A stretch of 44,786 nucleotides of DNA from a bacterium (lineage in GTDB: Bacteria; Elusimicrobiota; Elusimicrobia; Elusimicrobiales; UBA9959). Of this stretch, positions 8,599 to 44,786 are shown piece by piece (within the stretch, counting starts at the first letter, position 1; the number at the start of each line of letters is the position of its first letter). The stretch is taken from contig JAJYJH010000015.1 of the NCBI GenBank assembly GCA_021789695.1, positions 1-44,786 of the forward strand. The letters are read 5' to 3'. Below the pieces are notes generated by a model. The model worked only from the letters and a program-made list of their open reading frames with translations, searched no databases and was not told the DNA's origin. The position numbers and the translations under genes are program-made.

Positions 8599-8623
8599 TA
8601 TATTTTGATATAATAATTCTAAT

Positions 8624-9666: not shown

Positions 9667-9720
9667 AGCGCCCAGGAAAGCTTTTGCCCTTCGGGGCGAA
9701 AACAGCAGCGACAGAGAGAC

Positions 9721-9753
9721 AACGCCCCCGCGTCTTCGGATCGCGGGGGCGTT
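9721..9753. terminator. Strong GC hairpin after the peroxiredoxin gene
   Basis: AACGCCCCCGCG (9721-9732) and CGCGGGGGCGTT (9742-9753) form a perfect 12-bp stem with loop TCTTCGGAT. There is no T-run, so it may be a weak or factor-assisted terminator, or an mRNA end protector. It occupies the -35 region of the next gene, whose TATAAT is at 9767-9772. Confidence 0.55.
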
Positions 9754-9778
9754 CGCGCGCCTTTGGTATAATCTTGGG

Positions 9779-10927: not shown

Positions 10928-10967
10928 GCGGCCAGTTTTGATGTAGTCACGGGGCCGCGGTATTTGC

Positions 10968-10973
10968 TATTAT
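10968..10973 (+). promoter_or_regulatory. Probable -10 of tRNA-Pro(CGG)
   Basis: TATTAT at 10968-10973 lies 37 nt upstream of the tRNA; I see no good -35. Confidence 0.35.
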
Positions 10974-11010
10974 ATTCCTCGTTGTAAAAATGCAGTCTTA
11001 CCGATTTGAT

Positions 11011-11084
11011 CGGGGCGTGGCTCAGCTGGCTAGAGCGCTCGGTTCGGGACCGAGAGATCGTGGGTTCAAATCCCACCGCCCCGA
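11011..11084 (+). tRNA. tRNA-Pro(CGG)
   Basis: The 74-nt cloverleaf has acceptor CGGGGCG/CGCCCCG (the same stem as the other tRNA-Pro), anticodon stem CTCGG/CCGAG with loop TTCGGGA giving anticodon CGG, and T stem GTGGG/CCCAC with loop TTCAAAT. CCA is not encoded. Confidence 0.95.
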
Positions 11085-11127
11085 TCCTTCATTTTATATA
11101 CGCGGGAGTAACGCCGATGATGTTGCC

Positions 11128-11156
11128 TTGTCAATAGCCGCGGGTTTTAGTATTAT
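11128..11156 (+). promoter_or_regulatory. Promoter of acylphosphatase-sigma-apt operon
   Basis: TTGTCA (11128-11133) and TATTAT (11151-11156) are 17 bp apart, a good sigma-70 type promoter. The start codon is 23 nt beyond the -10. Confidence 0.65.
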
Positions 11157-11179
11157 TTAAAGCGGTCCGGCAGAAAGAT

Positions 11180-11458
11180 ATGCGTCTGAGCTTCAGAGTA
11201 AAAGGCAGGGTGCAAGGCATAGGTTACCGCTGGTTCGTAAAAGAGACGGCGGAGAAGCACCGCGTCTCCGGCTGGGTGCGCAACGCCCTAGACGGCTCCG
11301 TGGAAGGGGAGGCGCAAGGCGCCATACCGGAGCTAGACGGCTTCCTGAGGGACTTGAAGAGCGGCAACCCGTTCGCCGCCGTAGCGGAGACTGAAACGCA
11401 GGAGATGCTGGACCAGGAAGACGACAGCGAAAGCTTTCACATAAAACCCACCGCCTGA
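11180..11458 (+). CDS. acyP: Acylphosphatase
   Basis: This 92-residue enzyme hydrolyses acyl phosphates such as carbamoyl- or acetyl-phosphate. The phosphate loop GRVQGIGYR has catalytic Arg17, and Asn35 in GWVRNALDGSVEG is the second catalytic residue. The fold and length are standard, and a short acidic stretch precedes the C-terminus. It follows a good promoter at 11128-11156 and lies 9 bp before the sigma factor, so the two are probably co-transcribed. The pairing has no obvious functional reason. Confidence 0.93.
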   Translation: MRLSFRVKGRVQGIGYRWFVKETAEKHRVSGWVRNALDGSVEGEAQGAIPELDGFLRDLKSGNPFAAVAETETQEMLDQEDDSESFHIKPTA

Positions 11459-11467
11459 GAGGGGAAC

Positions 11468-12541
11468 ATGCCAGAAGAAAAAGACAACGAAGAGCTCGAA
11501 AAAGAGGAAGCGGCGCCCAAAGCCGAGAAGGAGCCTGGCGAAGAAACGCCCAAGCCCAAAGAAAAGCTCAGCGACATCAACATCGATTCCACAAACCAGT
11601 ACATAAGGAAGATCAGCCAGATCGACCACAAGATCTCGCGTGAGGAGTCGCACGATCTGTGGAAGCGCGTCAAGCGCGGCGATCGCCGCGCTAAAGAGCG
11701 CATTATGGAACTGAACCTCAAGCTCGTGATCCCGATAGCCAAACGTTTCCTCTACCAGGGCGCGGACCTGATGGACCTCGTAGAAGAGGGCAACCTCGGC
11801 CTGCTGCACGCCATCGATAAGTTCGACCCGAAGAAGGGCTACCGCTTCTCGACCTACGCGTCGTACTGGATAGAGCAGTACGTGCGCCGTTCCGTAGAGG
11901 AGAATTCCAAGACGATCCGCATCCCGCCGCACGCGTGGACCGCGCTGCGCAAGTGGCTCAAGCAGTGGGACAACATGCACGGCAAGCTGGGCCGCGACCC
12001 GACGATGGCGGAGATGGCCAAGCACATGCACTGGAACGCCAACCAGGTGCGCACCGCGCTGAACGCCAGCGAGATCGTGACCGGCCTCTCCTCGATAGAG
12101 ACGCCCCTCTCTTCGAGCGAAGGCATGGACGACACCGTCGGCGACACGCTGAAGGACGCCGACTCCTCTACCCCGGACAACTTGATCTCCATACTGCGCC
12201 TGCACGACGAGCTGAAGGACGCCCTAGTCGAGATAGGCGAACGCGAGCGGATGATAGTGGAGTACCGCTACGGCCTCACCGGCCAGACCCCGATGACGCT
12301 CAACGACATCGGCAAGAAACTGGGGCTCTCGCGCGAGCGCGTGCGCCAGATAGAGGAGCGGGCCCTGCTGCGCCTGCGCCGCGTGGCCGCGAAGATGGGC
12401 CTGATAGAGCTTGGCAAGCGGCCGGACCACACCAACCTGCAGCCAGGCTGGCACCAGCCCAAGGCCAGGACCGACATCCTCGGGGACTCAATCCCGACAA
12501 AACCTTACGAACCGCGCAAGAAGAACGGGAAGAAATTATGA
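11468..12541 (+). CDS. RNA polymerase sigma-70 family factor (group 2-like)
   Basis: The 357-residue factor has region 1.2 (QYIRKISQIDHKISREES), region 2 with NLKLVIPIAKRF, DLVEEGNLGLLHAIDKFDP and the -10-reading GYRFSTYASYWIEQYVRRSV, region 3 and region 4 with LGLSRERVRQIEERAL. The first about 35 residues are a Lys/Glu-rich acidic extension; the large region 1.1 and non-conserved region of primary sigma factors are missing. In region 2.4, WIEQYV replaces the usual WWIRQAI, which suggests altered -10 recognition. I read it as a group 2, RpoS-like stress or growth-phase factor; it could also be the main factor of a divergent lineage. It ends in ATGA overlapping apt. Confidence 0.88.
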   Translation: MPEEKDNEELEKEEAAPKAEKEPGEETPKPKEKLSDINIDSTNQYIRKISQIDHKISREESHDLWKRVKRGDRRAKERIMELNLKLVIPIAKRFLYQGADLMDLVEEGNLGLLHAIDKFDPKKGYRFSTYASYWIEQYVRRSVEENSKTIRIPPHAWTALRKWLKQWDNMHGKLGRDPTMAEMAKHMHWNANQVRTALNASEIVTGLSSIETPLSSSEGMDDTVGDTLKDADSSTPDNLISILRLHDELKDALVEIGERERMIVEYRYGLTGQTPMTLNDIGKKLGLSRERVRQIEERALLRLRRVAAKMGLIELGKRPDHTNLQPGWHQPKARTDILGDSIPTKPYEPRKKNGKKL

Positions 12542-13086
12542 ATACCACGACACGGCATTCCGCCGAACTGGCGGCCAGGCTAAAGGCCATAATCCGCGAC
12601 GTCCCGGATTTTCCGAAGAAGGGGATAGTCTTCAAGGACATAACGCCCCTGCTGGCAGACCACGCGGCCTTCTCCGGGCTGGTGAAGGACTTCGCCGGCG
12701 CCTTCAGCGGCGCGGGCATCACCAAGGTGCTGGGCATAGAGGCGCGCGGCTTCCTGCTGGCGGCCCCGATAGCCCTGGAGCTGGGCGCCGGCATAGTGCC
12801 GGTGCGCAAGAAGGGCAAGCTGCCCTACAAGACCGTCTCGGCCTCGTACGCGCTGGAATACGGCACCGACACGCTGGAGATGCACGCCGACTCGGTAAAG
12901 CCGGGAGAAAAGGTACTGGTGGTGGACGATGTGCTGGCCACCGGCGGCACGGCCGCCGCAGTCTGCGAACTGGTGGAGAAGCTGGGAGGCAAGGTCGCCG
13001 GGATAGCCATGCTTATAGAGCTGGAGTTCCTGAGGGGCCGCGACAAACTCGCTGGCCGCGACGTCTATTCTTTGATAAAATATTAG
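12538..13086 (+). CDS. apt: Adenine phosphoribosyltransferase
   Basis: Apt makes AMP from adenine and PRPP in purine salvage. The N-terminal DVPDFPKKGIVFKDITPLL, GIEARGFLLAAPIA and the PRPP motif VLVVDDVLATGGT (127-139) are all intact. At 182 residues it is close to the usual length. It starts within the sigma factor stop codon (ATGA), so it is translationally coupled to it. tRNA-Arg begins only 9 bp after its stop. Confidence 0.95.
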   Translation: MNTTTRHSAELAARLKAIIRDVPDFPKKGIVFKDITPLLADHAAFSGLVKDFAGAFSGAGITKVLGIEARGFLLAAPIALELGAGIVPVRKKGKLPYKTVSASYALEYGTDTLEMHADSVKPGEKVLVVDDVLATGGTAAAVCELVEKLGGKVAGIAMLIELEFLRGRDKLAGRDVYSLIKY

Positions 13087-13095
13087 CCTGTTTAC

Positions 13096-13167
13096 GCCCT
13101 CTTAGTTCAACGGATAGAACGGGAGTTTCCTAAACTCTAAATAGAGGTTCGATTCCTCTAGAGGGCA
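13096..13167 (+). tRNA. tRNA-Arg(CCT)
   Basis: The 72-nt cloverleaf has acceptor GCCCTCT/AGAGGGC, D stem GTTC/GAAC, anticodon loop TTCCTAA giving CCT, and T stem AGAGG/CCTCT with loop TTCGATT. CCA is not encoded. It starts 9 bp after apt with no room for its own promoter except within apt, so it is probably cut out of the operon transcript. Confidence 0.93.
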
Positions 13168-13194
13168 GTTAGTTTCAAAGGAGCCACACAAAAT

Positions 13195-13872
13195 ATGCCA
13201 GACTCAACATGGATAGCCGGCGGCAAGATGGAGCATGCCGGCCCCTCAAGATACGACCTGGCCACAGATTGGATAAAGAAGAACAGGGAGACCTTCATAG
13301 GCTCGGTGGTCATACTGGTGGCCGCCGTAGTCTTCTCCGTCTACTTCTTCGTCCATTACCGCGCCCTGCGCGACGACGCCTGGAAAGACCTTTTTATAGC
13401 CCAGCAGATAGGCTACGGCGGCAACATCGACGCCGCCCAGAAGCAGTTGGAGACCATAGAGACCTCCTTCGGCAGCACCAGCGCCGCGCCCTACGCCGTC
13501 CTGACCTCTGGCGACATCCTCTACGCCCAGGGGAAATACAAGGACGCCGAGGCACAGTATTCCAAGCTCCTCAACGACAAACTGCTGGGCCCCTTCGCTT
13601 CCTACAACGTGGGGAAATGCAGGGAGGCCGCCGGCGACCTTTCCGGGGCCCAGGCGCAGTATTCCGATTTTCTCTCCCGCTACCCGGAGCATTACCTGGC
13701 CCCTGAGGTAAGCGTCTCTTTGGCCGACATAGAGGAGCTTTCCGGCGCCAAGGACCTGGCAGAGCAGACCTGGGAGAAGATCTCCCTGCTCTACCCAGAT
13801 ACCTCCTGGGCCATGGAAGCAAAAGCCAAGCTTGCCCCGCCCCCCGTTTCCAGGCCCGCAGGCAAAAAATAG
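13195..13872 (+). CDS. Single-pass membrane protein with TPR repeats
   Basis: This 225-residue protein has a short cytoplasmic N-terminus, one membrane helix (about 37-55, SVVILVAAVVFSVYFFVHY) and an outer-facing domain of about three to four tetratricopeptide repeats (for example YAVLTSGDILYAQGKYKDAEAQYSKLL). It ends in a Pro/Lys-rich tail. The arrangement resembles YfgM, the SecYEG-associated periplasmic chaperone, but equally fits other TPR anchor proteins. AAGGAG lies 10 nt before the ATG. It follows tRNA-Arg directly and is closed by the terminator at 13891-13919. Confidence 0.8.
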   Translation: MPDSTWIAGGKMEHAGPSRYDLATDWIKKNRETFIGSVVILVAAVVFSVYFFVHYRALRDDAWKDLFIAQQIGYGGNIDAAQKQLETIETSFGSTSAAPYAVLTSGDILYAQGKYKDAEAQYSKLLNDKLLGPFASYNVGKCREAAGDLSGAQAQYSDFLSRYPEHYLAPEVSVSLADIEELSGAKDLAEQTWEKISLLYPDTSWAMEAKAKLAPPPVSRPAGKK

Positions 13873-13890
13873 CACGGCCACAAATGACAT

Positions 13891-13919
13891 AAAAAAGCCC
13901 GGTCCGCCGGGCTTTTTTT
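13891..13919. terminator. Intrinsic terminator
   Basis: AAAAAAGCCCGG, loop TCCG, CCGGGCTTTTTTT: a strong, bidirectional rho-independent terminator ending the apt-tRNA-TPR unit. Confidence 0.93.
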
Positions 13920-13956
13920 CTCCTTGCGTGCCCGCGGGCCTTTCACGCCGCATCAC

Positions 13957-14017
13957 TGACATATAATTGATAATTTTGTCATATGATTTGACATGACACG
14001 GGTATTATTTGCATAAT
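13957..14017 (+). promoter_or_regulatory. Porin promoter with TGACATAT/TGTCAT box
   Basis: TTGACA (13988-13993) and CATAAT (14012-14017), 18 bp apart, form a strong promoter. Just upstream and overlapping the -35 are TGACATATA (13957-13965) and the dyad TGTCAT (13977-13982) with ATGACA (13993-13998). The string CATATGATTTGACAT (13980-13994) recurs with a one-base deletion at 17115-17128, suggesting a common regulator. Confidence 0.6.
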
Positions 14018-31628: not shown

Positions 31629-32084
31629 ATGAACAGGATTAGCAGAAAGGGCTTCACGCTGATAGAGTTACTCGTGGTCGTGCTCATCATCGGTATCTTG
31701 GCCTCCATAGCCATACCGCAGTACATGAAAATCGTGGAGAAGAGCCGTTATTCCGAGGCTACGACCATGTTCTCTGAAATCGCCTCCGCCGAAGAGCGCG
31801 CGATGGCGAGGAACGGCACCTATACGACCAGCTACGACCAGCTCGACGTCACGCTCAAGGACGCCACCGGTAACAGTTGCGCCGGGGCTGGCGCCTGCCA
31901 GTTCAAGTACTACAAGATTCAGGTAACCTCCGCCGACAGCAGCCAGTTCACTATTGTCGCCACCAGGACCGGCACCGCCCCCGCCAGGTATGCGGCCGGC
32001 TATACGGCCACCTACGCAGGCGGCGCGGGCGGCAGCAAGGTTACGCTCTCCGACGCCAACGCAGCCAACGACTTCCAGCAGTAA
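31629..32084 (+). CDS. Type IV pilin (PilE/PilA-like)
   Basis: The prepilin has a 8-residue leader ending KG, then FTLIELLVVVLIIGILASIAIPQY; cleavage and methylation of Phe9 and the conserved Glu13 are expected. The 151-residue chain continues the N-terminal helix (YSEATTMFSEIASAEERAMARNGTYTTSYDQL) and has a Cys pair (NSCAGAGAC) only 5 residues apart instead of the usual C-terminal disulfide loop. The rest is Thr/Ala/Gly-rich. It is monocistronic, with AAGGAGA upstream and a terminator at 32102-32133. The PilT at 26964-28052 would retract the fibre it forms. Confidence 0.92.
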   Translation: MNRISRKGFTLIELLVVVLIIGILASIAIPQYMKIVEKSRYSEATTMFSEIASAEERAMARNGTYTTSYDQLDVTLKDATGNSCAGAGACQFKYYKIQVTSADSSQFTIVATRTGTAPARYAAGYTATYAGGAGGSKVTLSDANAANDFQQ

Positions 32085-32151: not shown

Positions 32152-33345
32152 CTACTGTTTCACCAACTCCCCGCTGCCAGCCTCAAAGATTATCCCGAGC
32201 CCGTCCCTGGCAAACCAGATGCGCCCGTCGCGCCAGGCGAAGGCAGATAGCGGGTATCCCGGCCTGGGAGTTCTCAGCCTGTAGACCCCGTCCAGCGTAA
32301 GGCTGTCGTCCAGCCTGTGCCTGTAAATCTTCCCAGTGGAGGAGACGAGGGTCCAGAGATATTTTCCGCTTTTGAAGACCTGGTCCGGCTTCTCCGGAAG
32401 TTTAAAGGAGGCTGCTGGGGTAAGATCCGGGTCGGGATGGCGCAATATGACGTTCCCATCGCCGTCGCAGGTCCAGAGGAACTCACCGTCGTAAAAAAGA
32501 GCGCTGACATTGGCAGGGGCCGGATAACTCCTGATGAGCGGAAGCCCGGGGGCAAGACGGCGCGCCTCTATGACCTTCTTCCAGGAATCGGCCACGTAGA
32601 GCGTGTCCCCTACGGCTGCAAGCCCGCTTATGTGGGTCTTCTCCAGCGGGAAAGTCTGTACCAGCTCCAGGCCCTCGCGCGAAAGGGAATACTGATATAC
32701 CGACTGCGCCAGCCAGTCCCCGGCCAGCAGCTTTCCGTCGGACCAGACCATGGCGGAGACGTTGGCGGCCGTGCCCGGATATTCGCGATAGTAGGAAGCC
32801 CCCCCCCCGGAAACCAGCCTGTAGCCCCCAAACCCCGCCAGCAGCACGGCTACTCCCCAGGCCAGAGCCCGCAGCGGTCTGAGGCTGTTGACAGGACCGG
32901 CCCCAGCGGGCCTGGCCTCGGGTACTGCCGCCGGAGCGGGCTGAGGCTCCTCCCTGCGCGCCTGCGGCATGGGGTGCCGGACGGACGGGCCAGGCACAAA
33001 GCGCCTTACAGTCTCCACCAGCTGCGCGTTCTCGAAAGGTTTCTGAAGATATTCGCTGGCGCCGAGCTTCATCACGTCCACTGCGGACTGGATATGCCCG
33101 TAGCCGGTTATCATAACGACCGGCACGGTATCGTCTATCTTTTTCAGGGCGGAGAGAACCTCCATGCCGTCCATGCCTGGCAGGCGCATGTCCAGCAGGA
33201 CCAGGTCGGGGCGGCCCTCCTTCGCGAGCGCGATAGCGGCAGGGCCGTCGCCCGCTTCCGTAATCTCGTAACCGCGCAGCTTCAGGACGTTTCGCACGGC
33301 CAAGCGCATATCCGGTTCGTCGTCGACTATAAGTATTCTCGCCAT
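32152..33345 (-). CDS. Receiver domain joined by a membrane helix to a beta-propeller
   Basis: Residues 1-120 of this 397-residue protein are a complete response-regulator receiver: acidic pair Asp8/Asp9, phospho-acceptor Asp52 in LLDMRLPGMDG, Thr80 and Lys102 in LQKPF. A Pro/Ala/Arg-rich linker (about 120-155) leads to one membrane helix (about 158-176, WGVAVLLAGFGGYRLV). The remaining 215 residues are a repetitive beta structure with about five blades of the NHL/YVTN type, such as VSAMVWSDGKLLAGDWLAQSVYQY and VSALFYDGEFLWTCDGDGNVI. There is no DNA-binding or enzymatic output domain. With the receiver in the cytoplasm, the propeller faces the periplasm, an unusual topology for a receiver protein. 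It starts 9 bp after the histidine kinase and is its likely partner. Confidence 0.85.
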   Translation of the reverse strand: MARILIVDDEPDMRLAVRNVLKLRGYEITEAGDGPAAIALAKEGRPDLVLLDMRLPGMDGMEVLSALKKIDDTVPVVMITGYGHIQSAVDVMKLGASEYLQKPFENAQLVETVRRFVPGPSVRHPMPQARREEPQPAPAAVPEARPAGAGPVNSLRPLRALAWGVAVLLAGFGGYRLVSGGGASYYREYPGTAANVSAMVWSDGKLLAGDWLAQSVYQYSLSREGLELVQTFPLEKTHISGLAAVGDTLYVADSWKKVIEARRLAPGLPLIRSYPAPANVSALFYDGEFLWTCDGDGNVILRHPDPDLTPAASFKLPEKPDQVFKSGKYLWTLVSSTGKIYRHRLDDSLTLDGVYRLRTPRPGYPLSAFAWRDGRIWFARDGLGIIFEAGSGELVKQ

Positions 33346-33354
33346 AGTTCCTCG

Positions 33355-36300
33355 TCAGAAAATTTCAGGCAGCTCCATCACGGCCCGCGTACCCTTCCCG
33401 GCTTCGCTGTGAAGTTCCAGGGAGCCGCCATGAGCCCTCGCGACGTTGCGCGCAAGGGTCAGGCCCAGGCCCATCTTGCCGGGGCGCGTCGTGAAGAAAG
33501 GATGGAATACGGAGGCTAGGTTCTTCCTCTCGATGCCTTCCCCTTTGTCCGCTATCTCCAGGCGCTGCTTGCCGCCTCCGGAAGAGATGGAAATAGAAAT
33601 CTCGCCACCGACCGGTTTGGACTCGGCGGCGTTCAGCAGCAGCTGTTCAGCGGCGGCCGCGAAACGCACGCGGTCTATGCTTATCGGCTTAAGTTTCTCT
33701 CCGCCTTTTACCTTCACCCGGACGTTTTCCATGCGGCCAGAAGCCCGCAGTCCATCGAGCACCTCGGACACCACCACGGAAAGACGCTCGGGAGAACGCT
33801 GCGGGATGACGGGCCTGGAGAAGTTCATTATAAGATCTATCTTCTTCTGGAGGTTCACGATATTGCGCACTATCACGTCCAAGGATTCGCGCGCCCCGTC
33901 CGATTCCGGGGCCTCGGCGCAGAATTCAGCGTGACTGCGGATTATGCTGATAGAATTGGCCACCTGGTGCGCCACCCCGGCCACCAACTCCTCGAAGTCC
34001 GGGAGATAGCCGGGCGAACCGGCGCTCTGCCCGCGGGCCTTCAGTTCCTCGAAATCCCTCTCCAGCCGCCTCATACGCGACGTTACGTCGAAAAGCATCT
34101 TCTCTTTTATCGACAACTTCTCTTCGGCTTCCCTCAGCATCGCGCGGTACGGCCTGGACTTAAGTTCCTCCCGCAGTTCCTTCTCCCGGCCCTGGAGTTC
34201 GGCCTTCTCCGCCCGGGTATGCTCCAGTTCGGCGCGCAATTTGACCAGCCGGCTCTCTTTTTCCGCAAGCAGGCGCTCCGCCTCCGAAGCCTTCGCCTTC
34301 TGCGCCTTGGCTGTGGATTTATTGCGCATCAGGGAAAGCAGGCCCTGTTTCTCTTTTTTCAGGGCCTCCGTCTCCCGCTTCAGTTCCTCCTCCGCGGCGC
34401 CCAAGCGGGAAATAATCTCGTCGCGGGAGGAGATGTCCGTCTGGGCTTTTCTAAGTTGTTCGTTTTCCGCGTGTATCTCGCGCGAATATTTTTCCGTAAG
34501 CTCGGCGCGGCTGCGCCTTAGCAGCGCGCATTCTCCATCAAGGGAAAAAAGCGCCTCCCTGGCCTCGCCCAGTTCGAACTCTTTCTTCTTCAGCATGATC
34601 TCCGCGTTATGCATCTTCTCCGAAAGTTCCGCGTAACGCGCACGTTCCGCCTCCGCCTCTCCGGCGGCGTAGGACTCTTTCTCCTCCAACTTCCGGCGCA
34701 GCTCTTCGGCGTCCCTGGCCGCCAACGACGCTGCGGAGATGGCCTCCTGCAACTCGAAATCTTTTCTTTTCAGTTCCGTCTCGGCCGCCCGGAGCTGTGC
34801 CATCAACCCCGTCTCGACGCCCAATTTCTCCCCAGCCTGCGCCGCGGAGGCGGCCTGCGCCGCCTTCATAGCCTCGCGCAGAGAGTCAGATTCGGCCTTA
34901 ATACCGGCTTTCTCTCCGGAAAGCGTTTCGTTGGCGAGGACCAGGTCGTCGTACCTGCGCAACAGCTCCGTGTACTTGGCGGACTGCTCCTCCAGCGCGG
35001 CCATAAGGCCCGCGGCCTCACCGTCCCTGGCTTTCGACTCCTGAGCCGCCAAGGAGGAAGCCGCCGTTTCCGCCTTTATCGCGGCCGACCTGAACTTGTC
35101 GCGTTCCGCTTCCAACGACTTCATTCGTCCCTGCGCTATCTCTATCTCGTTCTCAGAGTTCCTGAGCTTGGAGGAGACGTTGTTCAACTGTGCAGAGGCG
35201 AACTTCCATTTCTCCTCGGCGTCGCCAAGTTCCCGGGAAAGGCTCTCCTCCCTGGCCCGCAGCGCGGCGTTCTCCTCCTCTTTGGCCCGCAAATCGGCCC
35301 TGACGGCGCTGAACTCGGCCTGCACGGCGCGGTACTTCTCCATGTGCTCCAAGGCTGCGCGGGACAGGGCGCCCTCCAGTTCCTCCACGCGCGCGGCCAT
35401 GGCGGCGGCGGTCTCCCGCGCACGGGCGGCGCTCTCGTGCGCGCTGCCGTTCTTTAATTGAGTAAACTCCTTCGTCAGTTCCTTGAGTTTGAGATTGGCA
35501 TCTTTAAGCTGGGCTTCCTTCTCCGACAACGCGACGTTGGTCTCGGCAAGCAACTTGGCGTTCGCGGCGGCCTCGGACAAGGCGTCCTCCAGCCTGGCTC
35601 CGGCGGCGGCCAGCTTACGCTCTATCTCCTCGGTGCGTCTGGTCTGCTCGCGCAGCTCTTTCTTGACCAGCTCAAGTTTAAGCAGGAAGCCTTCCTCGGA
35701 GCGGGAATTTTCCTGGGCGGCCAGTTCCAGTTTCTTTTCAAGGCTCTCGCTCAAACGCGCCGCCTTCTGCAACTGGGTTTCCCGGTCCTTGACGCTGGAG
35801 CGTTCCAGCGCCAGGTCCGTCCTCAACTCCTCTATGGAGCGCGCCAGCCTGTCGATCTCCTCCTGCTTCGCCTTAACGGCGGCATGCCCGGCCAATATCT
35901 GCTGTTCCTTCTCCGCGGTCCTGGCCTTTTCAACCTCAAGCATCTTTTCCCGCGCGGCCAGCTGGTTCAGCAGCTCTCCGCGCTCCGCGGCGAGGGCGTC
36001 GGCCCTCCCGCTCTCTGCGCGCTGGTCGGCTCGGGCCTGCTCTATGGCGGCCGCCAGCTCGGCGGCCTTCTCTTCGGCCTCCGCGCGGACTTCTTTCAGC
36101 TGCGCATTTTTCTCTGCCAGCGAGGCCTTGGCCTTATCTATAAGTTCTTCCGCAGCCTGAAGGCGCCTGGACAAGTCGTCGCGATCCAGCGCGGCAGCAG
36201 CGTGCGCGGAACTTTCCTTGGCCAACCCGGTCCTGGCCGCCTGCAGCGCTGCGTTGAACCCGGCGGCGTCCTCCTTGGCGGCTGCGCGGGCCTCTTTGAG

Positions 36301-36579
36301 CAGTTTCTCCTTTTCCACCGCCGAGGCCTTGGCGTCCTCCAGCTTTTCGGAGAGTGCCTGCAGCCGGACAGAGGCCGATTCCCGCTCCGAGGTGAGCGCG
36401 GCCCTCGTTTCGTCCAAAACCCTGGCTGCTGAGGCGCGATAGGACGCGAGTTCTTCCTCCAGCGCCTTCACCCGCGCCGTCAGCGACTCCTCGCGACCAC
36501 GCAGGTCGGATAGGAACCCGTCCAGCTCGGAATTGAGGCCTTCCAGGTCGCTCAAATGGCTGCTTATCTGTTCTTCCAT
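33355..36579 (-). CDS. Soluble histidine kinase with an 850-residue coiled-coil N-terminus
   Basis: The 1074-residue protein is almost entirely charged heptad repeats (Ala, Glu, Lys, Arg, Leu) up to about residue 850, with no membrane segment, PAS or GAF domain. The last about 210 residues are a histidine kinase. The H box is FEELVAGVAHQVANSISIIRSHAEF with His871, the N box EQLLLNAAES, G1 IADKGEGI, the F box FHPFFTT, and G2 GKMGLGLTLARNVARAHGG. The residue after the phospho-His is Gln, not the usual Glu. The coiled coil is the only possible input region, so it probably senses by scaffold binding or filament state. It overlaps the coiled-coil gene upstream by 16 nt and is 9 bp from the receiver gene. 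Confidence 0.88.
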   Translation of the reverse strand: MEEQISSHLSDLEGLNSELDGFLSDLRGREESLTARVKALEEELASYRASAARVLDETRAALTSERESASVRLQALSEKLEDAKASAVEKEKLLKEARAAAKEDAAGFNAALQAARTGLAKESSAHAAAALDRDDLSRRLQAAEELIDKAKASLAEKNAQLKEVRAEAEEKAAELAAAIEQARADQRAESGRADALAAERGELLNQLAAREKMLEVEKARTAEKEQQILAGHAAVKAKQEEIDRLARSIEELRTDLALERSSVKDRETQLQKAARLSESLEKKLELAAQENSRSEEGFLLKLELVKKELREQTRRTEEIERKLAAAGARLEDALSEAAANAKLLAETNVALSEKEAQLKDANLKLKELTKEFTQLKNGSAHESAARARETAAAMAARVEELEGALSRAALEHMEKYRAVQAEFSAVRADLRAKEEENAALRAREESLSRELGDAEEKWKFASAQLNNVSSKLRNSENEIEIAQGRMKSLEAERDKFRSAAIKAETAASSLAAQESKARDGEAAGLMAALEEQSAKYTELLRRYDDLVLANETLSGEKAGIKAESDSLREAMKAAQAASAAQAGEKLGVETGLMAQLRAAETELKRKDFELQEAISAASLAARDAEELRRKLEEKESYAAGEAEAERARYAELSEKMHNAEIMLKKKEFELGEAREALFSLDGECALLRRSRAELTEKYSREIHAENEQLRKAQTDISSRDEIISRLGAAEEELKRETEALKKEKQGLLSLMRNKSTAKAQKAKASEAERLLAEKESRLVKLRAELEHTRAEKAELQGREKELREELKSRPYRAMLREAEEKLSIKEKMLFDVTSRMRRLERDFEELKARGQSAGSPGYLPDFEELVAGVAHQVANSISIIRSHAEFCAEAPESDGARESLDVIVRNIVNLQKKIDLIMNFSRPVIPQRSPERLSVVVSEVLDGLRASGRMENVRVKVKGGEKLKPISIDRVRFAAAAEQLLLNAAESKPVGGEISISISSGGGKQRLEIADKGEGIERKNLASVFHPFFTTRPGKMGLGLTLARNVARAHGGSLELHSEAGKGTRAVMELPEIF

Positions 36580-39500
36580 AACCGGAGCTTGTCCTTCAGC
36601 TGCTCGACCAGTTTCTGGGTCTTAAGGAATTCCTCCTGTTTCTCGCGCAGGGCCGAATGCGCGGTTTCCGCCAGAAGTTCGCTCTCCGCGCGTTTGCCCC
36701 GCTCTTCTTCGAAGGCGTGCTTAAGGCGCTCTACGGCGTATTTGAGAGCTTCCACTTCCGAAGTCCTTTTGCCGGCCTCCTCCGTTTTCTCGTTCAGGGC
36801 CGATCGCGCGGTGGAGGCAGACAGTTCCGCTTCCGCGCGTTTTCGGCTCTCATCCTCGAGCGAGATCCTGAGCCTGTCCAGGGACTGGCGGAGGGTGTCG
36901 TACTCGCTCTTGCGCGCGGCCATATGGTCCAACTTCTCCTGCAAGGCGGCATTGGCGTTCTGCGCCAGTGCTTCGGCGTCCTCGCGCTTTTTGCGCTCCT
37001 CCACGAAAGCGGACTTGAGCCGCTCTATGCCGTTCTTCAGGGCCTCGATATCCGCCTTGCGAGCCTCGGTCTCGGAATTTTTCTCGCGGAGCGCGGTCTG
37101 CAATGAAAGATAGGCGGATTCGGATTCGGAACGGCGTTTCTTCTCCTCCTCCAGCGCGGCCCCCAGCTGCACCAGGCGGTCCTTCACGTCGCCAAGTTCC
37201 GACTTGGCACTTTCGGCCTCGGAATCCTTACCGTTCAAGGCGGACCGGAAGGAGGCCGCTTCCGCTTCCGCCTCGGAACGGGATTTGCGTTCACCCGCCA
37301 GGGCCTCGCCGAGCTGCTTCAGCCTGACCTTGAGGTTCTCGGCGTCCGACCTGCCTGCCTCCGCCTCCGTTGTCTTCCCGCTCAGCGCGGACTGGGCGGA
37401 AAGCAGGGCGGCCTCGGTCTCTGACCTGCGCCGCCGCTCCTCTTCGAAAGCGGACTTCATACGCTCCATGGAGGCCCTCAAATTCTCGGCCTCTCCCCGG
37501 TTCTCGAGAGCCTCGCCGGCGCTGGAGGCCAGCTCCTTCTTAAGCGAGATGAGTTCTTCCTTCAGCGCCTTCTCCCGCTCGGCGAAGGCGCGAAGCTGCT
37601 CGTCGAGTTCGCCGCGTATGGTCTGCATGGAACCGGCCGTTTCGGCCTGCCTGGCGCGCTCTTCGTCGAGGGCGGCTTTCAGCCGTTCCGCCCCGTTGCG
37701 CGCCTCGTCCAGCTGCACCTTGTGCTTCTCCAGCAGCACGTCCTTGGCGTTGGCCATATCGCGCAGCGAGGAAATCTCGGCCAGCAGAGCCTTCTCCTTC
37801 TGCGTGTACTCGTGAGCGCGGCGCTCCCCGGCGGCGTGCATTTCGCGCCGTTCGTTCTCCACCTGTTTGGCGGCGGAGGATTTGAGTTCCGCGGCCTCCT
37901 GCTCGCGGCGCAGGTTCTCGGCGCGCAGCAGTTCCAAGTCGCGTTTAAGGGATTCTATCTGCTTGTCCCTGGCCGACTTCTGTTCTTCGACTCCACGCAG
38001 TTTGAGCAGCGCGTCGTTGTAGCGGCGCTCAGCGTCCTTAACCTCCGACTCGAAGGCCTCCTTTAGGTCGTCGTGCTCGGTGCGGAGTTCTTTATACAAC
38101 TTTTCGCGGTCGGAAAGTCTGGCGGAGAGGGAGGCTATCTGGTCCCCGGCCTGTTTTTTCTCCTGGGCCAGCTCGGCCTGCATGGCCAGCAGCTGCGCCT
38201 GGCGCTCCTCAGCGGTCCGTTTGAGGTCTTCCATCCTGGAGAGCGACTCAGAAAGGTTGTTACGTATGTCCGCGAGGGTCTTCCGGTAAGAATCTTCCCG
38301 TTCCTGGCGGAGCCTCACGGCCGCTTCCAACTCGGCGTTTTTGCGTTCTATTATCTCGCCGTAGCGCTCCGCCTCCTTGCGCAGCGCGGAATCCAGCCTT
38401 GTGCCGGCCGCGGCCTCTTCGTCGGCCAGGCGCTGAGCCATGGCCGCTAATTTATCCTCCAGCGTCCGCCTTTCGGCGGCATGGGACGCGGACAGAGAAT
38501 CCAGTTCCGCGGTATGGGCGGACGCGACAGACTCCCTTTCCGCCGCGGCCTTGGCCAGGCTCTCCTTGACCCGGAGCAACTCCGCGTCGCGGACTGAAAG
38601 CTCTTCGTCCATCGCCTTCTCTTTCTCGGCGTAGAGGCGCTGCAGGCGCTCGCGCTCCATCAACAGCAGTTCCTCTTTCTCTATGCGCACCGCCTCCATC
38701 GTGGCGGTCTGCTCTGCTATCTTGTCGTCGCGCAGCTTTATCGTGGCGGACAGGCGCGCGGCACGGTCTTCAAGTTCCGCGAGGCCCCTTGCCTTCTCCT
38801 GTGCCACCGCGGCCTTCAGCTCCTCGGCGGCCTGTTGGCGCTGCAGGCGCGCCTCGTCCGCGGCTTTTTGCAGCGCCAGGCGCTGGGAGGTTATTTCGTC
38901 CTCCTTGCGGGCCAGTTCGCCCTTGAACTCCGCGGCACGGTTGTCAAGTTCGTCGGAGAACTTCTGTTTCTCCGCAGCCAGACGCTTCTCCGCGTGAGCG
39001 GCCGCTTCGGAAAGCTTCTGTTCCAGTTCCGCCCGCATTGCGGCCTTCAAAGCGTCCCTGTCGACGGAGGCTTTCTGAGCCTGCGTCTCCAGCTGCCGGC
39101 GCAACTCGGCCTGCGCCTCCTTGGCGGCGGCCTTTTCCTTGGAAATATCCTCCAGGTCGCGCCGCAGGTGGGAGATCTCCTCCACCTTCAGGCGCAGACT
39201 GTCCTCGTAGATGCGGCCGGCGCTCTCCAGTTCCGCGCGCAGCGAGGCGGAGTTCTTCTCCAGCTCGACCTTCAGGCGCACGTCGTACTCCGATTGCAAC
39301 TGCTTCTCGCGGAAAGCGAACTCTTCCTGGCGGACGCTGTACTGAGTCTGCATCTGCTCCGCCTTGTGGGCCAGTGTCTCCCGCTCGGCCTGCAGGTTCT
39401 TGATCGTCTCCTCGAAAGTGCGCAGGTTGCGCTGCAGGTATTCTATCTCGTCCTGCCTCTTGCCCAGGTCTTCGCGGTATCCGCGCTCGGTCTCCTGCAG

Positions 39501-40541
39501 CTTCTCGGCAAAACGGTTGCGCTCGTGCTCCACGGCTATCTTGAGTCGCTTCGGGATCTCCGCCTCCATCTCGCGGAAACGGCCGCGTTCTGTCTCCAGG
39601 GCGTCGGCGGCCTTGGACAGACGGCTCTCGTAATCGGCCTGCAGGTTCTTTTTCTCCGTCTCCAGCGTACGGATGACGCTCTCCAGGCTTCCTATGGCGT
39701 CCTTGTAGCGGACCAAATCGTCGTCGCGGCGCTTCACGGCCTCCGGGAACTCCCTGAGCTGCTTTTCCAGCAGCGAGAGCTTTACCTTGTAATCGTCTAT
39801 CTCCTGGTTCTTCTCAAGGAGTTTCTTCTCTATCTCCAGTTCCTTCTGCTTGAGAGTACGGTCGCGCTCCTCGGTCTCCTTCTGCCAGCTGTCCTTGGCC
39901 CATTTAAGAACCGCTTCCTGCTTCTTCAGTTCGTCCCCGACGGTACGTTCGCGCCTTTCAAGTTCCTCCACCTTGTTCCGGTAAGTCTCATCCAGTAGGG
40001 TTTTATGCTCCGCGGCCTCGTCGGCCATCCGTTTCTTCTCTTCTTCCAGCCTGGCGCCGTAGACACGCTCAAATTCCTGCTGCTTGGCCAGCTGCTCCTG
40101 GCGCAACTGCCACAATTCCCCTTCCACCTGCGCCCAACGCGAACGCAGTTCCTCGGCCTTTTTCTGGTAATCGCTTTCAAGCCGCGCCTCCTTCTGCTTG
40201 AACACTTCCTCGCTCTTGGAGATCTTGTCCTCCAGTTCCTTTTCGCGATCGGTCAGGCGCTCTAGGCGGGATTTGAACTGATATTCCAGCGAGGACTGGC
40301 GCGACTTCAGCTCCTCTTCGTGAACGCGGGAGGAGCGCTCCAGCTCCGCGTTCTTCGTCTTGAGCTGGCTCTCCAGGAAGGCGACCTGGCTGGACTTTTC
40401 CTGCAGGTTCTGGCGGGTCTTCAAGTCCTCCTCGTGCAATCCGCGGATCTTGTCCAGCGCCCAACGCAGGGCCAGACGAGCCGTTTCCACGTCGGTTATC
40501 GCGGACTCGTTGAGTGAGGACTCGTCAAAATTCTCTTTCAT
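36564..40541 (-). CDS. Giant coiled-coil protein with 49-residue repeats
   Basis: This 1325-residue protein is a continuous coiled coil apart from about 35 residues at the start (DVETARLALRWALDKIRGLHEE). It has no signal peptide or membrane helix and hardly any Pro or Cys. Residues 1002-1295 consist of six consecutive units of exactly 49 residues (seven heptads), followed by a partial seventh of 30 residues that ends the protein. A typical unit reads SALxxKxxEA, then ALKxxxERLKxAFEEERxKRxExE. It resembles bacterial scaffolds or intermediate-filament-like proteins (crescentin, FilP, AglZ) in architecture only. It overlaps the coiled-coil kinase gene, so the two are made together. Confidence 0.85.
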   Translation of the reverse strand: MKENFDESSLNESAITDVETARLALRWALDKIRGLHEEDLKTRQNLQEKSSQVAFLESQLKTKNAELERSSRVHEEELKSRQSSLEYQFKSRLERLTDREKELEDKISKSEEVFKQKEARLESDYQKKAEELRSRWAQVEGELWQLRQEQLAKQQEFERVYGARLEEEKKRMADEAAEHKTLLDETYRNKVEELERRERTVGDELKKQEAVLKWAKDSWQKETEERDRTLKQKELEIEKKLLEKNQEIDDYKVKLSLLEKQLREFPEAVKRRDDDLVRYKDAIGSLESVIRTLETEKKNLQADYESRLSKAADALETERGRFREMEAEIPKRLKIAVEHERNRFAEKLQETERGYREDLGKRQDEIEYLQRNLRTFEETIKNLQAERETLAHKAEQMQTQYSVRQEEFAFREKQLQSEYDVRLKVELEKNSASLRAELESAGRIYEDSLRLKVEEISHLRRDLEDISKEKAAAKEAQAELRRQLETQAQKASVDRDALKAAMRAELEQKLSEAAAHAEKRLAAEKQKFSDELDNRAAEFKGELARKEDEITSQRLALQKAADEARLQRQQAAEELKAAVAQEKARGLAELEDRAARLSATIKLRDDKIAEQTATMEAVRIEKEELLLMERERLQRLYAEKEKAMDEELSVRDAELLRVKESLAKAAAERESVASAHTAELDSLSASHAAERRTLEDKLAAMAQRLADEEAAAGTRLDSALRKEAERYGEIIERKNAELEAAVRLRQEREDSYRKTLADIRNNLSESLSRMEDLKRTAEERQAQLLAMQAELAQEKKQAGDQIASLSARLSDREKLYKELRTEHDDLKEAFESEVKDAERRYNDALLKLRGVEEQKSARDKQIESLKRDLELLRAENLRREQEAAELKSSAAKQVENERREMHAAGERRAHEYTQKEKALLAEISSLRDMANAKDVLLEKHKVQLDEARNGAERLKAALDEERARQAETAGSMQTIRGELDEQLRAFAEREKALKEELISLKKELASSAGEALENRGEAENLRASMERMKSAFEEERRRRSETEAALLSAQSALSGKTTEAEAGRSDAENLKVRLKQLGEALAGERKSRSEAEAEAASFRSALNGKDSEAESAKSELGDVKDRLVQLGAALEEEKKRRSESESAYLSLQTALREKNSETEARKADIEALKNGIERLKSAFVEERKKREDAEALAQNANAALQEKLDHMAARKSEYDTLRQSLDRLRISLEDESRKRAEAELSASTARSALNEKTEEAGKRTSEVEALKYAVERLKHAFEEERGKRAESELLAETAHSALREKQEEFLKTQKLVEQLKDKLRLWKNR
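36657..37538 (-). repeat. Six in-frame 147-bp repeats in the coiled-coil gene
   Basis: The six 49-codon units (residues 1002-1050, 1051-1099, 1100-1148, 1149-1197, 1198-1246, 1247-1295) align without a gap at protein level. The DNA copies have diverged considerably, so the repeat is old and kept by selection rather than recently expanded. A further 30-codon partial unit follows to the stop. Confidence 0.85.
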
Positions 40542-40592: not shown

Positions 40593-42047
40593 CTAGGGCA
40601 GCGTGAGCACCTGTCCCGGCTTCACCTCTCCGCCACGGCCGACGGCGCCCGCGTTGGCACGGTAGATATCCGGCCAGCGATCCGCGTCCCCGTACACCGA
40701 GACGGCTATGCTCTCGAGCGTGTCCCCCTCTTTCACCACGTAGCGCGCCGGGCGGGAAGGGGCGGACTGTGGCTTGGGCCTGGAGACAGGCGCTGGTTTG
40801 CGGGAGTTCTTAGCCTTGAGAGCTTCCATCTCCGCACGAGATTTCTCGAGCTCCAGCCTAAGTGCTTGTATCTGGCGTAGCATCTCCGCCTGGGCCTGGA
40901 CCTCAGCCGCTGAAGGCTGTGGCGCCGAAGCGGCCTCTACCGGCTGAGGGACCGGGGCGGGCTGCGGGGCTAGTTGCGCGGCCGGCTGGGGAACAGACCT
41001 GCTGGCGAGTTCGTCCAGTCTCTGCTGCAGCTCCTGGATCTGGAGCTCCTGCCGCGCGGCCTTGTCCTGCACCAGCCTGAGTTCTTCCGTCCCTTCCGTG
41101 GTCGCCGCGGCCGCGGGCGGGGCGCCGAAGCGGAAAGAGAAAGCCAGGCGGTGCGAGCCTATCGTGCCCGCAATACCGCTTATGGGCAGGCTGAAAGCGT
41201 AGTCGAAGGAAGCCATGCCGAAATGCGCGCCGAGCCCCAGCGTGACGTTGCGGCGCGAATCGTTCCCCGACGAGAAACCAAGGCGCAGCGCATAGTTGCT
41301 CTGAAAAGAATACTCCGCGCCGGCGGCGAAGTTGTAGTCGGAACCGGCAAAGGCGGCGTCCAGGTCTAGCAGGCTAGAGCGGACCAGGTAGGAAACCCCA
41401 GCGTGCACTTCCACCGGGAGCCGGTCGGAGGAACCCAACCCCATGTCGGGCTTGTTGAAATTTTTAAGGGCCAGGCCCAGCGCGTAGTTCGGCCGGGGGC
41501 GATAGAAAAGTCCCAGATCAGCTCCCAAGGCGCTCTTTGAATACCCGTTGCTGAGAAAAAGAGGGTCCACCGCGGTATAGGCGTCAGAAGTGTAGGCGCG
41601 GCGCAGGTACTTCAACGACAGGCCAGCGCCTATGCCGTGATATACCGTGGTAGCGTAACTGAGGGAATAAGAACTTTCGGAATAGGCGCCGGTAAGGTTC
41701 GTATTGTTCCAGCTGAAAGCAGCAGGCCCGCGCAGATAGGGCTGCACCGGCACCGCCAGGCCAAAATAGCCCTGGCCTATGTTGGAGTCGTCGCTGAGGC
41801 CCGAATAGAGGCGGCCGTAAACGGCAGTCAGCTCCGGGGCGGAAAGCTCCACCAGGGCCGCCGGGTTGGCGCAAGCCGACTCGGCCCCGCCGGCCACGGC
41901 GGTGAAAGCTCCGGACATCGCGGCGGCGCGCGCCCCGCAGGAATCCGATAAAAAAGCGGCATCAGCCTTCATAGATAACGCGGCAATAAGACATACCAAA
42001 GCGAGACCTTTTGCCACAGTTACAAGTTTAACTTTCGGCTGTTTCAT
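40593..42047 (-). CDS. PorV-like outer-membrane barrel with C-terminal LysM domain
   Basis: This 484-residue protein has a signal peptide (about 1-30, ending ADA), then a beta-barrel starting with the PorV/UPF0164 hallmark GARAAAMSGAFTAVAGGAESACANPAAL. Strands run to about residue 335. A short Glu/Gln coiled-coil (EELRLVQDKAARQELQIQELQQRLDEL) and a Pro/Gln linker follow. Residues about 435-484 are a LysM domain (YVVKEGDTLESIAVSVYGD...VKPGQVLTLP) that binds peptidoglycan glycan. This links outer membrane to cell wall. PorV proteins act in the type IX secretion system, but no other such component is here, so I do not infer that system. The ATG at 42047 follows a weak AGGT. Confidence 0.82.
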   Translation of the reverse strand: MKQPKVKLVTVAKGLALVCLIAALSMKADAAFLSDSCGARAAAMSGAFTAVAGGAESACANPAALVELSAPELTAVYGRLYSGLSDDSNIGQGYFGLAVPVQPYLRGPAAFSWNNTNLTGAYSESSYSLSYATTVYHGIGAGLSLKYLRRAYTSDAYTAVDPLFLSNGYSKSALGADLGLFYRPRPNYALGLALKNFNKPDMGLGSSDRLPVEVHAGVSYLVRSSLLDLDAAFAGSDYNFAAGAEYSFQSNYALRLGFSSGNDSRRNVTLGLGAHFGMASFDYAFSLPISGIAGTIGSHRLAFSFRFGAPPAAAATTEGTEELRLVQDKAARQELQIQELQQRLDELASRSVPQPAAQLAPQPAPVPQPVEAASAPQPSAAEVQAQAEMLRQIQALRLELEKSRAEMEALKAKNSRKPAPVSRPKPQSAPSRPARYVVKEGDTLESIAVSVYGDADRWPDIYRANAGAVGRGGEVKPGQVLTLP

Positions 42048-42124: not shown

Positions 42125-43669
42125 TTACCGGGCCAGCACCATCGTGCCGTTGTAATACTTTCCGCCGGCCTTGAACTGGTAAATATAGATGCCGGCCTGC
42201 GCCTTGTCCCCGTTGGACCGGCGGCCATCCCACGACAACGAGGCCTCGGTATTGTACGTACCAGCCTTAAGGCTGGCGATCTGCGCGCCGGAGAGGTCGT
42301 AAACCTTTGCGTCCGTTATGGCAAGCCCCTCCGGGTTCTCGTAAAGGATATTGAACTCGTCCCAGACCCCGTCGCCGTTAGGCGTGAAGATCTTCTTCGG
42401 GACGGTCTGGGTTATGCGGAAACTCTGCGCCCGCAGAACCTGCTTGACCTTGAACAGGCCGGTCTGGCGCGTGATCACGGAGATTGTGCCGTTAGACGGA
42501 TCTACGGTGCCTCCCAGCTTCACGTCCTCCACGCCGTTGTAGTAATAGACGGAGTAATCGTAGGCGCTGTAGGCAACCGACGGGATGAAGCCGCTGACGG
42601 TAAACGCGCCGGTCTTAGAGAGCGGCAGGATAAGCGTCGCGTCATTGTCGAGCGTCCTGGTTGCCGCCTCCTTGTTGGCGGCGTCACGCAGAAAGAACTT
42701 GTAAGCCACCAGGGTGGGACCGCTCTCGTAGGCGGGCTGGTCTTCCAACGCCGGAGTAAGGCCGGCAGAAGTAAGCGCCTGCTGTGCGTAGGGCGGCATA
42801 TCCACCACCGCCCGCTGGTCGTCCGCTACCGTGCGTGTGAGCTGCTCAGAGTTGCTCAGCCAGATGGAGGCGTCGCTGAGCACGCCGTTGCCGTCCAGCG
42901 TCTTCACGAAGTACCACTGCGACGGCAGAACGGAGACGGGGTAGGACAGAGTGTCTGAGGAAAGCACTATAGGGGAAGAGACCGCTCCGTTAAGGGCGGT
43001 GCTGGAGAAGATCTCATAGTTGGCGACCGTGGCCGGGTTGCCGCTCACGTCCGAGGTGACCGGCAGCCAGGAGATTGTGAAATATCCGTTGGAGCTGACT
43101 CCGGTTACGATGGGAGCCAGCGGTAGTACCGGGTTGATGGCAAAGGAGGAGTTAGCCGACAGACGGCCGTACATATTCGAGCTGTCGCGCACCCGGATTG
43201 CCACGTAATAAGTCTTGCCGGATTGCAGTCCTCCGTAGATACGCTGGTCCACCGAGCCGGGACTCAGGGCCGAGACAGTAAGCGAGGAATCCACGGTCGA
43301 ATAGTTGGAGTAGGTGATCGGGTAGGTGGCTATCTTTATCTCCACGTAGCTCGCCTGACCGGCCAGGCCGTCTGAACCAACGCTGGTCCACTGCAGAAGT
43401 GCGCTGTTGGAGAGACTTGGAGTAGCCGCAAGATCGTAGACGACGCCAGGGCTGTGGCTGGTGGCGGAATGGCCACCACGCACACCATAAGTCGTGGAGG
43501 TCATCGGCGGCCCGGAAACCTCGCCCACGGTGGACTCCAGCGTCTTCCCCACGCTGGCAGAAACCGCCAGCCCCGAGGTGAAGGCATGAGTCTCCACGGA
43601 GACGGCACCCCACGCGCCCGACGCGCCCAGCATCAGCGCCAGTGTCATACCCGCGCTTTTATATCTCAT
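42125..43669 (-). CDS. Secreted protein with fibronectin-like domains and FlgD-like tail
   Basis: This 514-residue protein has a signal peptide (about 1-22, GASGAWG). Two fibronectin type III-like regions follow (around 75-165 and 170-270, for example SVDQRIYGGLQSGKTYYVAIRVRD and NYEIFSSTALN), then a beta-rich segment. The C-terminus (about 425-514) has PKKIFTPNGDGVWDEFNI, AKVYDLSGAQIASL and SWDGRRSNGDKAQAGIYIYQF, a FlgD Ig-like domain close to the gliding-associated C-terminal sorting domains. Such tails occur on many exported proteins. GGAAGG precedes ATG 43669. It lies 100 bp after the adhesin gene and 77 bp before the PorV-like gene. Confidence 0.8.
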   Translation of the reverse strand: MRYKSAGMTLALMLGASGAWGAVSVETHAFTSGLAVSASVGKTLESTVGEVSGPPMTSTTYGVRGGHSATSHSPGVVYDLAATPSLSNSALLQWTSVGSDGLAGQASYVEIKIATYPITYSNYSTVDSSLTVSALSPGSVDQRIYGGLQSGKTYYVAIRVRDSSNMYGRLSANSSFAINPVLPLAPIVTGVSSNGYFTISWLPVTSDVSGNPATVANYEIFSSTALNGAVSSPIVLSSDTLSYPVSVLPSQWYFVKTLDGNGVLSDASIWLSNSEQLTRTVADDQRAVVDMPPYAQQALTSAGLTPALEDQPAYESGPTLVAYKFFLRDAANKEAATRTLDNDATLILPLSKTGAFTVSGFIPSVAYSAYDYSVYYYNGVEDVKLGGTVDPSNGTISVITRQTGLFKVKQVLRAQSFRITQTVPKKIFTPNGDGVWDEFNILYENPEGLAITDAKVYDLSGAQIASLKAGTYNTEASLSWDGRRSNGDKAQAGIYIYQFKAGGKYYNGTMVLAR

Positions 43670-43769: not shown

Positions 43770-44786
43770 TTACTGACATGGAGTAGCCGGACTCGACGAT
43801 TCAACAATGGCGAACGTAGCGGTACCGGTACTGACACACAGCGCGTTCAAGTTTGAATTATAGTAGAGATCACCGACATCTGCCGGATGGACCGTCAGTA
43901 AATTAGAGGTACTGAGGACCGGGACATGGAAGCGGGATGTGGTCGCATTAGCCACGACTAGCTTCGCAGCGGTCACCGTGTCAGCGACATCCACAATTCC
44001 AGCATTGACCTTTATGCCGGAGCTCGTCTCGATACTGTACTGCGACCCGCTAGCCGTAAACGTCCCGCTGGAGGCAGTGACGGCATTAGTGAACGTTGCA
44101 TCGTTGGCCAACATGCTGCCGCTAGTCGTTATCGATGACTGGCTGACTATGTTTGCACTGGCACCGCTCATCGTCAGTGAACCGGTTATCGTGTTCGCCG
44201 CGTTCGTGTATACGCCGTTCGTGACGCTGCCCGCCTTCCCGGTGGTGTTCAGCGCGTACGTGCCCGTCGCACTCGACTGGATAATACCGGTCAGGTTGGA
44301 TCCGTCCCCGTAGAAACTCCCAGTCGTAGTTATAGATGACCCACTGATTATATTGGCGCCGGCACCGCTCATCGTCAGCGAACCGGTTATCGTGTTCGCC
44401 GCGTTCGTGTATACGCCGTTCGTGACGCTGCCCGCGTTCCCGGTGGTGTTCAGCGCGTACGTGCCCGTCGCACTCGACTGAATAATACCGGTCAGGTTGG
44501 ATCCGTCCCCGTAAAAACTCCCAGTCGTAGTTATCGATGACCCGCTGATTATATCGGCGCTGGCACCGCTCATCGTCAGCGCGCCCGTCATCGTGTCACC
44601 CGCCTTCAACACCTTGCTGCTGTCCGTCGCAGTCACGTTGGTAAGACCCGAGCCGTTGCCAAAGAACGTGCCGCTCGTAGTTATAGATGACCCACTGATT
44701 ATATTGGCGCCGGCACCGCTCATCGTCAGCGAACCGGTTATCGTGTTCGCCGCGTTCGTGTATACGCCGTTCGTGACGCTGCCCGC
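43770..44786 (-). CDS. Repetitive adhesin or fibre protein (5' end outside the window)
   Basis: The frame is open to the window edge, so only the C-terminal 338 residues are seen. They are nearly all Gly, Ser, Thr, Asn and Ala, in two repeat types: a 67-residue unit (GSFYGDGSNLTGI, TYALNTTG, GVYTNAANTITGSLTMSGA) and a 50-residue unit with LKAGDTMTGALTMSGAS. The latter is a phrase common in phage tail fibres and trimeric adhesins. After the repeats comes a stalk-like stretch and a conserved end with VGDLYYNSNLNALCVSTGTATFAIVES and a final Cys. I expect a secreted or surface fibrous protein. Phage origin is unlikely because no phage genes are near. Confidence 0.75.
   Translation of the reverse strand, partial: AGSVTNGVYTNAANTITGSLTMSGAGANIISGSSITTSGTFFGNGSGLTNVTATDSSKVLKAGDTMTGALTMSGASADIISGSSITTTGSFYGDGSNLTGIIQSSATGTYALNTTGNAGSVTNGVYTNAANTITGSLTMSGAGANIISGSSITTTGSFYGDGSNLTGIIQSSATGTYALNTTGKAGSVTNGVYTNAANTITGSLTMSGASANIVSQSSITTSGSMLANDATFTNAVTASSGTFTASGSQYSIETSSGIKVNAGIVDVADTVTAAKLVVANATTSRFHVPVLSTSNLLTVHPADVGDLYYNSNLNALCVSTGTATFAIVESSSPATPCQ
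44150..44786 (-). repeat. Near-identical 201-bp and 150-bp tandem repeats
   Basis: The string beginning GTGTATACGCCGTTCGTGAC starts at 44206, 44407 and 44758. The first interval is 201 bp; the second is 351 bp, which is 201 plus an inserted 150-bp unit. Copies differ at only a few positions, so they are recent or homogenised and could vary in number between strains. The array continues past the window end. Confidence 0.85.

Follow-up and report, generated by a model that had tools for sequence, protein, structure and literature searches.

A coiled-coil protein, a histidine kinase and a receiver-propeller protein inside a surface-protein operon of Elusimicrobiota suggest a chain from the cell interior to surface display

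In M. xanthus FrzS and AglZ, a receiver-type domain and a coiled coil are joined in one cytoplasmic protein. PorX carries an effector domain in the cytoplasm and acts on expression. The receiver of FrzS lacks the phospho-accepting aspartate (PMC1974792). LapD provides an example of inside-out signalling (PMC3032553), while in the type IX secretion system (T9SS) of Bacteroidota PorE, a protein with TPR, propeller and cell-wall binding parts, forms a complex with PorP and type B cargo (PMC9143113).

Here we describe a locus from the little-studied phylum Elusimicrobiota in a window of 44,786 nucleotides, the whole stretch of DNA that was analysed. Three genes follow each other on the minus strand in the order SC, HK, RP: SC and HK overlap by 16 nt, and 9 nt separate HK from RP. 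The same-strand genes upstream belong to the same run, and the operon starts further upstream than SC, at a repeat adhesin, a CHU_C protein and a PorV-like barrel. These three upstream genes were overlooked in a preliminary description of the sequence, and they change how SC, HK and RP are interpreted. The features are as follows.

43770..44786, minus: repeat-rich adhesin-like protein, running past the window end (ORF, L041)
42125..43669, minus: secreted protein with a C-terminal CHU_C (T9SS sorting-type) domain (Pfam)
40593..42047, minus: PorV-like outer-membrane barrel with a periplasmic coil and a C-terminal LysM domain (PorV_fam profile, structural search)
36564..40541, minus: SC, 1325-aa coiled-coil protein, predicted cytoplasmic (ORF, periodicity, profile)
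40437-40493, minus: conserved N-terminal motif of SC (profile)
36609-37490, minus: six repeats of 49 residues (7 heptads) near the C-terminus of SC (protein repeats)
33355..36579, minus: HK, coiled-coil histidine kinase, 1074 aa (ORF, Pfam, periodicity)
34030-36579, minus: coil of HK, aa 1-850 (periodicity)
within 33355..36579, minus: HisKA (aa 864-922) and HATPase_c (aa 969-1072) of HK (Pfam)
33967-33969, minus: phospho-acceptor His871 of HK (H-box motif)
32152..33345, minus: RP, receiver-TM-propeller protein, 397 aa (ORF, Pfam, AlphaFold2)
32992..33345, minus: receiver domain of RP (Pfam, motif columns)
33190-33192, minus: phospho-Asp52 of RP (receiver motif)
32806..32877, minus: predicted transmembrane (TM) helix of RP, aa 157-180 (AlphaFold2, TM score)
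32155..32793, minus: predicted five-bladed propeller of RP, aa 185-397, glutaminyl-cyclase fold (AlphaFold2, fold search)
31629-32084, plus: type IV pilin-like gene that faces RP in convergent orientation and is its neighbour in many family members

Compared with a sister species (L104), SC, HK and RP are 92.5-93.7% identical with zero indels, and dN/dS is 0.08-0.10, i.e. there is strong purifying selection. From this it follows that the three genes are in use. The 16-nt overlap between SC and HK is kept in nearly all relatives where both genes could be read. A scan for promoters and terminators gave a result near chance.

The coiled coil in SC and HK is real. In SC, 35 of 58 84-residue segments are dominated by heptads or hendecads, against a mean of 11.7 and a maximum of 28 in shuffled sequences; in the HK coil it is 20 of 36 (shuffled 7.3, maximum 18). 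The longest proline-free stretch is 995 residues in SC and 809 in HK. In Pfam, SC has a single weak coiled-coil match, under the curated cut-off. TRF found zero DNA tandem repeats beneath the 49-aa protein repeats of SC, and a 67-residue period is seen in the coils of HK. The kinase core of HK matches HATPase_c (4.6e-19) and HisKA (4.1e-5; 24 bits, slightly below the cut-off of 26.9), and its H box with the phospho-acceptor His as well as its N, G1, F and G2 boxes are all present.

RP is predicted to consist of a receiver, one TM helix and a propeller beyond the inner membrane. In the AlphaFold2 model (pLDDT 83.6) the receiver covers residues 1-118, a disordered linker 121-155, the helix 157-180 and the five-bladed propeller 185-397. 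The receiver matches Response_reg (3.1e-33), has D8, D9, D52, T80 and K102 all intact and gives a fold match with Z 23.5; further, it matches the PorX model NF052313 (1.7e-17, receiver region only). The TM helix scores 1.55 in the window, just below the cut-off of 1.6, and nearly all orthologues pass at the equivalent place. The genes, sizes, order and spacing given in the preliminary description are reproduced by the window ORFs (40541-36564, 36579-33355 and 33345-32152), and the domain make-up by Pfam, coil periodicity above shuffles and the model of RP.

The propeller resembles glutaminyl cyclases in fold (Z about 24.8 over 209 residues, 17-19% identity), so it might be an inner-membrane glutaminyl cyclase that modifies exported proteins and is regulated by phosphorylation. 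The low identity and zero matches to the glutaminyl-cyclase Pfam family in RP led us to reject this enzyme identity for the propeller. Inspection by eye also found no Gln after the places where the signals of the exported neighbours are likely to be cleaved, and we regard a cyclase as hardly credible.

A search for TM-propellers gave matches in 85 of 248 genomes of the phylum. The loci sampled within the phylum, mostly from metagenome assemblies, were picked partly from the best matches and are mutually related, so the following figures are counts and not probabilities. Of 41 loci with an intact receiver-propeller, 39 have HK directly upstream (<=200 bp), and SC is detected upstream in 18 of these 41. 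Of the 29 receiver loci where PorV was found or that offer at least 9.4 kb of room, 23 have a PorV-like gene upstream. Among 40 propellers whose receiver scores weakly, is degenerate or is missing, 24 have a PorV-like gene <=200 bp upstream, against a background of 1 in 20 random stretches holding such a gene. The gap from HK to RP is mostly 5-19 bp, and one of the two exceptions to the pairing is an artefact of the ORF start. The proposal of a common pathway had been made to depend on the genes being neighbours in related genomes, and these counts do not contradict it.

In the family of the window the run CHU_C, PorV-like, SC, HK, RP recurs. At class level HK comes in two forms, both still immediately before RP: a bare core of 217-287 aa and a giant of 1636-2599 aa. 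That a bare kinase has the same partner in distant relatives indicates that the coiled coil is accessory. The pairing of a PorV-like gene with a TM-propeller is repeated phylum-wide, where the cytoplasmic module is a receiver, a degenerate receiver, a TPR or a coiled coil. The same genome contains two further paralogous PorV-like and TM-propeller loci (L039 4196-6655 and L040 1875-9624), and there the module is a degenerate receiver or a coiled coil. Upstream of the giant-kinase loci at class level no PorV-like gene was found in L061 and L066, and in L064 only a partial match; LysM proteins are encoded just downstream in L066 and L067.

A scan of the collection with a six-row propeller alignment, its reach bounded by its two peptide patterns, returned only loci labelled Elusimicrobia, Elusimicrobiota, Elusimicrobiales or unnamed bacteria. 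The VIA-align list consists mostly of receiver domains, so the absence of other propeller families from it is no evidence.

Three of the giant kinases (L061, L066, L067) are single-frame histidine kinases of 2434-2599 aa (in L066 at 6207-14006), with more than 2,000 coiled-coil-rich residues before the kinase core. Additional kinases are also encoded upstream of the giants in L061, L064 and L066. Near the locus described here, a PAS-type kinase and an NtrC-like regulator are found just past the window (L041 2492-5009), upstream of the adhesin.

HK has no other sensor domain and the receiver of RP has no cytoplasmic output, from which we infer that the signal runs from the inside out. In the opposite case the propeller would sense an outer-membrane or surface protein and, via the TM helix and the receiver, set the kinase or phosphatase state of HK towards another regulator. 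Such a regulator could be provided by the PAS kinase/NtrC-like pair or by one of more than 60 other receiver-domain matches in the genome. However, RP is the HK-adjacent receiver nearly everywhere, no second regulator is conserved, and it would be unusual for a receiver to serve as a sensor relay; we judge outside-in signalling distinctly unlikely.

The link between the coils, the kinase and the propeller is also seen in gene fusions. A profile of the SC N-terminus was built from SC proteins only and compared with 254 coiled-coil decoys, the best of which scored 12.5 bits. The motif starts the kinases of 2434-2599 aa (24-27 bits) and also coil-TM-propeller fusions (26 and 18 bits). Together with the gene pairing, and with receiver decay upon loss of the kinase His, these SC-HK and SC-TM-propeller fusions favour the idea, already put forward in the preliminary description, of a single pathway that takes its input from cytoplasmic coiled coils and sends its output through the inner membrane to a periplasmic propeller.

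The decay is best seen in L050, where the kinase H box has lost both His and Asn; of the invariant sites, 11 of 65 are altered in the receiver and 0 of 40 in the propeller. In L051 the kinase His is changed to Asn, with one receiver position altered and none in the propeller, and in L053 all parts have decayed. These genomes were selected after their motifs had been seen, so the co-decay is to be read as an observation from a small number of cases, L050 being the clear one. Among the complete genus-level genes read, theirs are the kinases with the shortest coils. Where a TPR takes the place of the receiver, Arg stands at the kinase His position in L077 and in L078 (second locus); L080 could not be read at that column. 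The changes in kinase motifs or receiver in L050, L051 and L053 show that some lineages can do without phosphotransfer.

It could be argued from this that SC, HK and RP are a purely structural tether joining the coils to an outer-membrane anchor, in which the kinase and receiver folds serve mainly for docking and phosphorylation is minor. In several lineages a TPR or coiled coil takes the place of the receiver and the kinase His is lost, the conserved sites of the L050 propeller are unchanged amid receiver decay, and some propellers are fused directly to coils. On the other hand, the His, the N/G boxes and D8, D9, D52, T80 and K102 are intact in nearly all family members, which implies selection for the chemistry. 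We therefore place a purely structural role on the unlikely side. Since the role of the propeller can outlast phosphorylation, at least part of the link is structural, and the phosphorelay would tune it.

What the propeller may act on is suggested by the upstream genes. The PorV-like protein matches PorV_fam (3.6e-20) with 72.8 bits, under the curated cut-off of 90, and the top fold matches of its barrel, for which the model is of moderate quality, are the PorV chains 6h3i_F and 8gl6_F of the type 9 translocon. The CHU_C domain of its neighbour passes the Pfam cut-off. The genome has seven CHU_C matches, several of them with a PorV_fam match no more than about 1 kb away on the same contig, a proximity that resembles the layout of type B cargo with PorP-like partners in Bacteroidota (PMC9143113).

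The genome also encodes a Sov/SprA homologue (C63:8057-10216), which matches a SprA-like query from Elusimicrobiota with E 1.7e-283 and is missed by Pfam alone; relatives score above the cut-off for SprA_N. Sov/SprA homologues occur in 209 of 248 genomes of the phylum, including lineages that lack the propeller. As gut lineages retain Sov without it, RP is no core T9SS part, and we rejected it as such. The GldM_1st profile matched 0 of 31 genomes of relatives, so secretion may bypass the known T9SS motor; the GldL profile matched 0 of 13, with zero matches in the control genomes too. Full-text searches of the literature available to us on T9SS in Elusimicrobia returned nothing relevant.

A role in cell polarity, shape or pilus control had been suggested earlier, in which the coils would form a scaffold at the pole for type IV pili or for division. 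A pilin gene does adjoin RP and ftsQ/A/Z lie nearby, with the synteny kept in many genomes of the same family. However, the pilin is on the opposite strand and convergent with RP, ftsQAZ are not part of the run, and neither is found beside class-level relatives, while the genes that move with the propeller are the PorV-like and CHU_C ones. The suggestion is therefore very unlikely to hold.

Taken together, the data suggest that SC, HK and RP form a conserved unit inside a surface-protein operon, a chain by which the cell interior acts on display. In our preferred reading, to which we give a probability of roughly 0.55, the unit is a trans-envelope, phosphorylation-tuned link between cytoplasmic coiled coils and a PorV-anchored surface protein. 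The half in the cytoplasm and inner membrane would be made up of SC, HK and RP; the PorV-like/LysM barrel together with the CHU_C protein would supply the half in the outer membrane and at the surface.

In such a link, SC and the HK coil would build long cytoplasmic assemblies; these would set the position of the kinase and might also sense the state of assembly. HK would autophosphorylate at His871 and pass the phosphate to Asp52 of RP, as the motifs, gene pairing and co-decay suggest. Phosphorylation of RP could then alter its dimerisation or spacing, and the change would be relayed via the single TM helix to the propeller. The propeller in turn may touch the PorV-like barrel at its periplasmic coil/LysM part, or else the cargo of the barrel, a step to which the recurrent gene pairing points, and would thereby control anchoring, loading or release of the CHU_C protein exported by Sov/SprA.

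A stronger version, which we regard as possible and advance tentatively, is a phosphate-driven inside-out switch. Here coiled-coil kinases (in relatives up to about 2,600 residues, potentially with more than 300 nm of coil) would act on a membrane-anchored propeller that engages a PorV-like, wall-bound anchor and so controls T9SS-type display, in a phylum apparently without the known T9SS motor. If true, the output of a two-component system would be a periplasmic act on surface-protein anchoring instead of gene expression, type IX-type surface display would be tied to cytoplasmic coiled-coil architecture, and there would be a first mechanistic entry into surface building by free-living Elusimicrobiota. 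Intact receiver, decayed receiver, TPR and coil also make a natural series in which to study what a structural link gains from phosphorylation.

Compared with the known systems, the likeness to FrzS and AglZ is architectural, a receiver-type domain and a long coiled coil within one pathway. The earlier comparison reaches no further than that: receiver and coil are on separate proteins in the window, the phospho-Asp is kept, and FrzS and AglZ have no TM propeller, so we rejected membership of their family. PorX/PorY share with this locus two-component signalling tied to T9SS-type genes, as well as the receiver match, while RP differs by its TM helix and periplasmic propeller.

In its proposed workings the system resembles LapD and PorE-PorP, though by our analysis it is a member of neither family. 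As in LapD, a cytoplasmic signal would pass through a TM protein to a periplasmic output governing surface adhesion; in LapD the input is c-di-GMP and the output periplasmic proteolysis, whereas here receiver phosphorylation is the proposed input and the propeller the output, and Pfam finds no HAMP-GGDEF-EAL domain in RP or HK. With PorE-PorP the locus shares a sorting-domain surface protein, a probable FadL-family barrel, a peptidoglycan-binding domain and a periplasmic propeller, with genes often adjacent. PorE, however, is a lipoprotein of the outer membrane that carries TPR, propeller and OmpA-like domains, and its complex has no kinase. Here the wall-binding LysM is on the barrel and the propeller on an inner-membrane receiver protein; RP has only receiver, TM helix and propeller, and PorE membership was rejected for that reason. 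If the stronger version holds, the locus would be a phosphate-driven counterpart of LapD.
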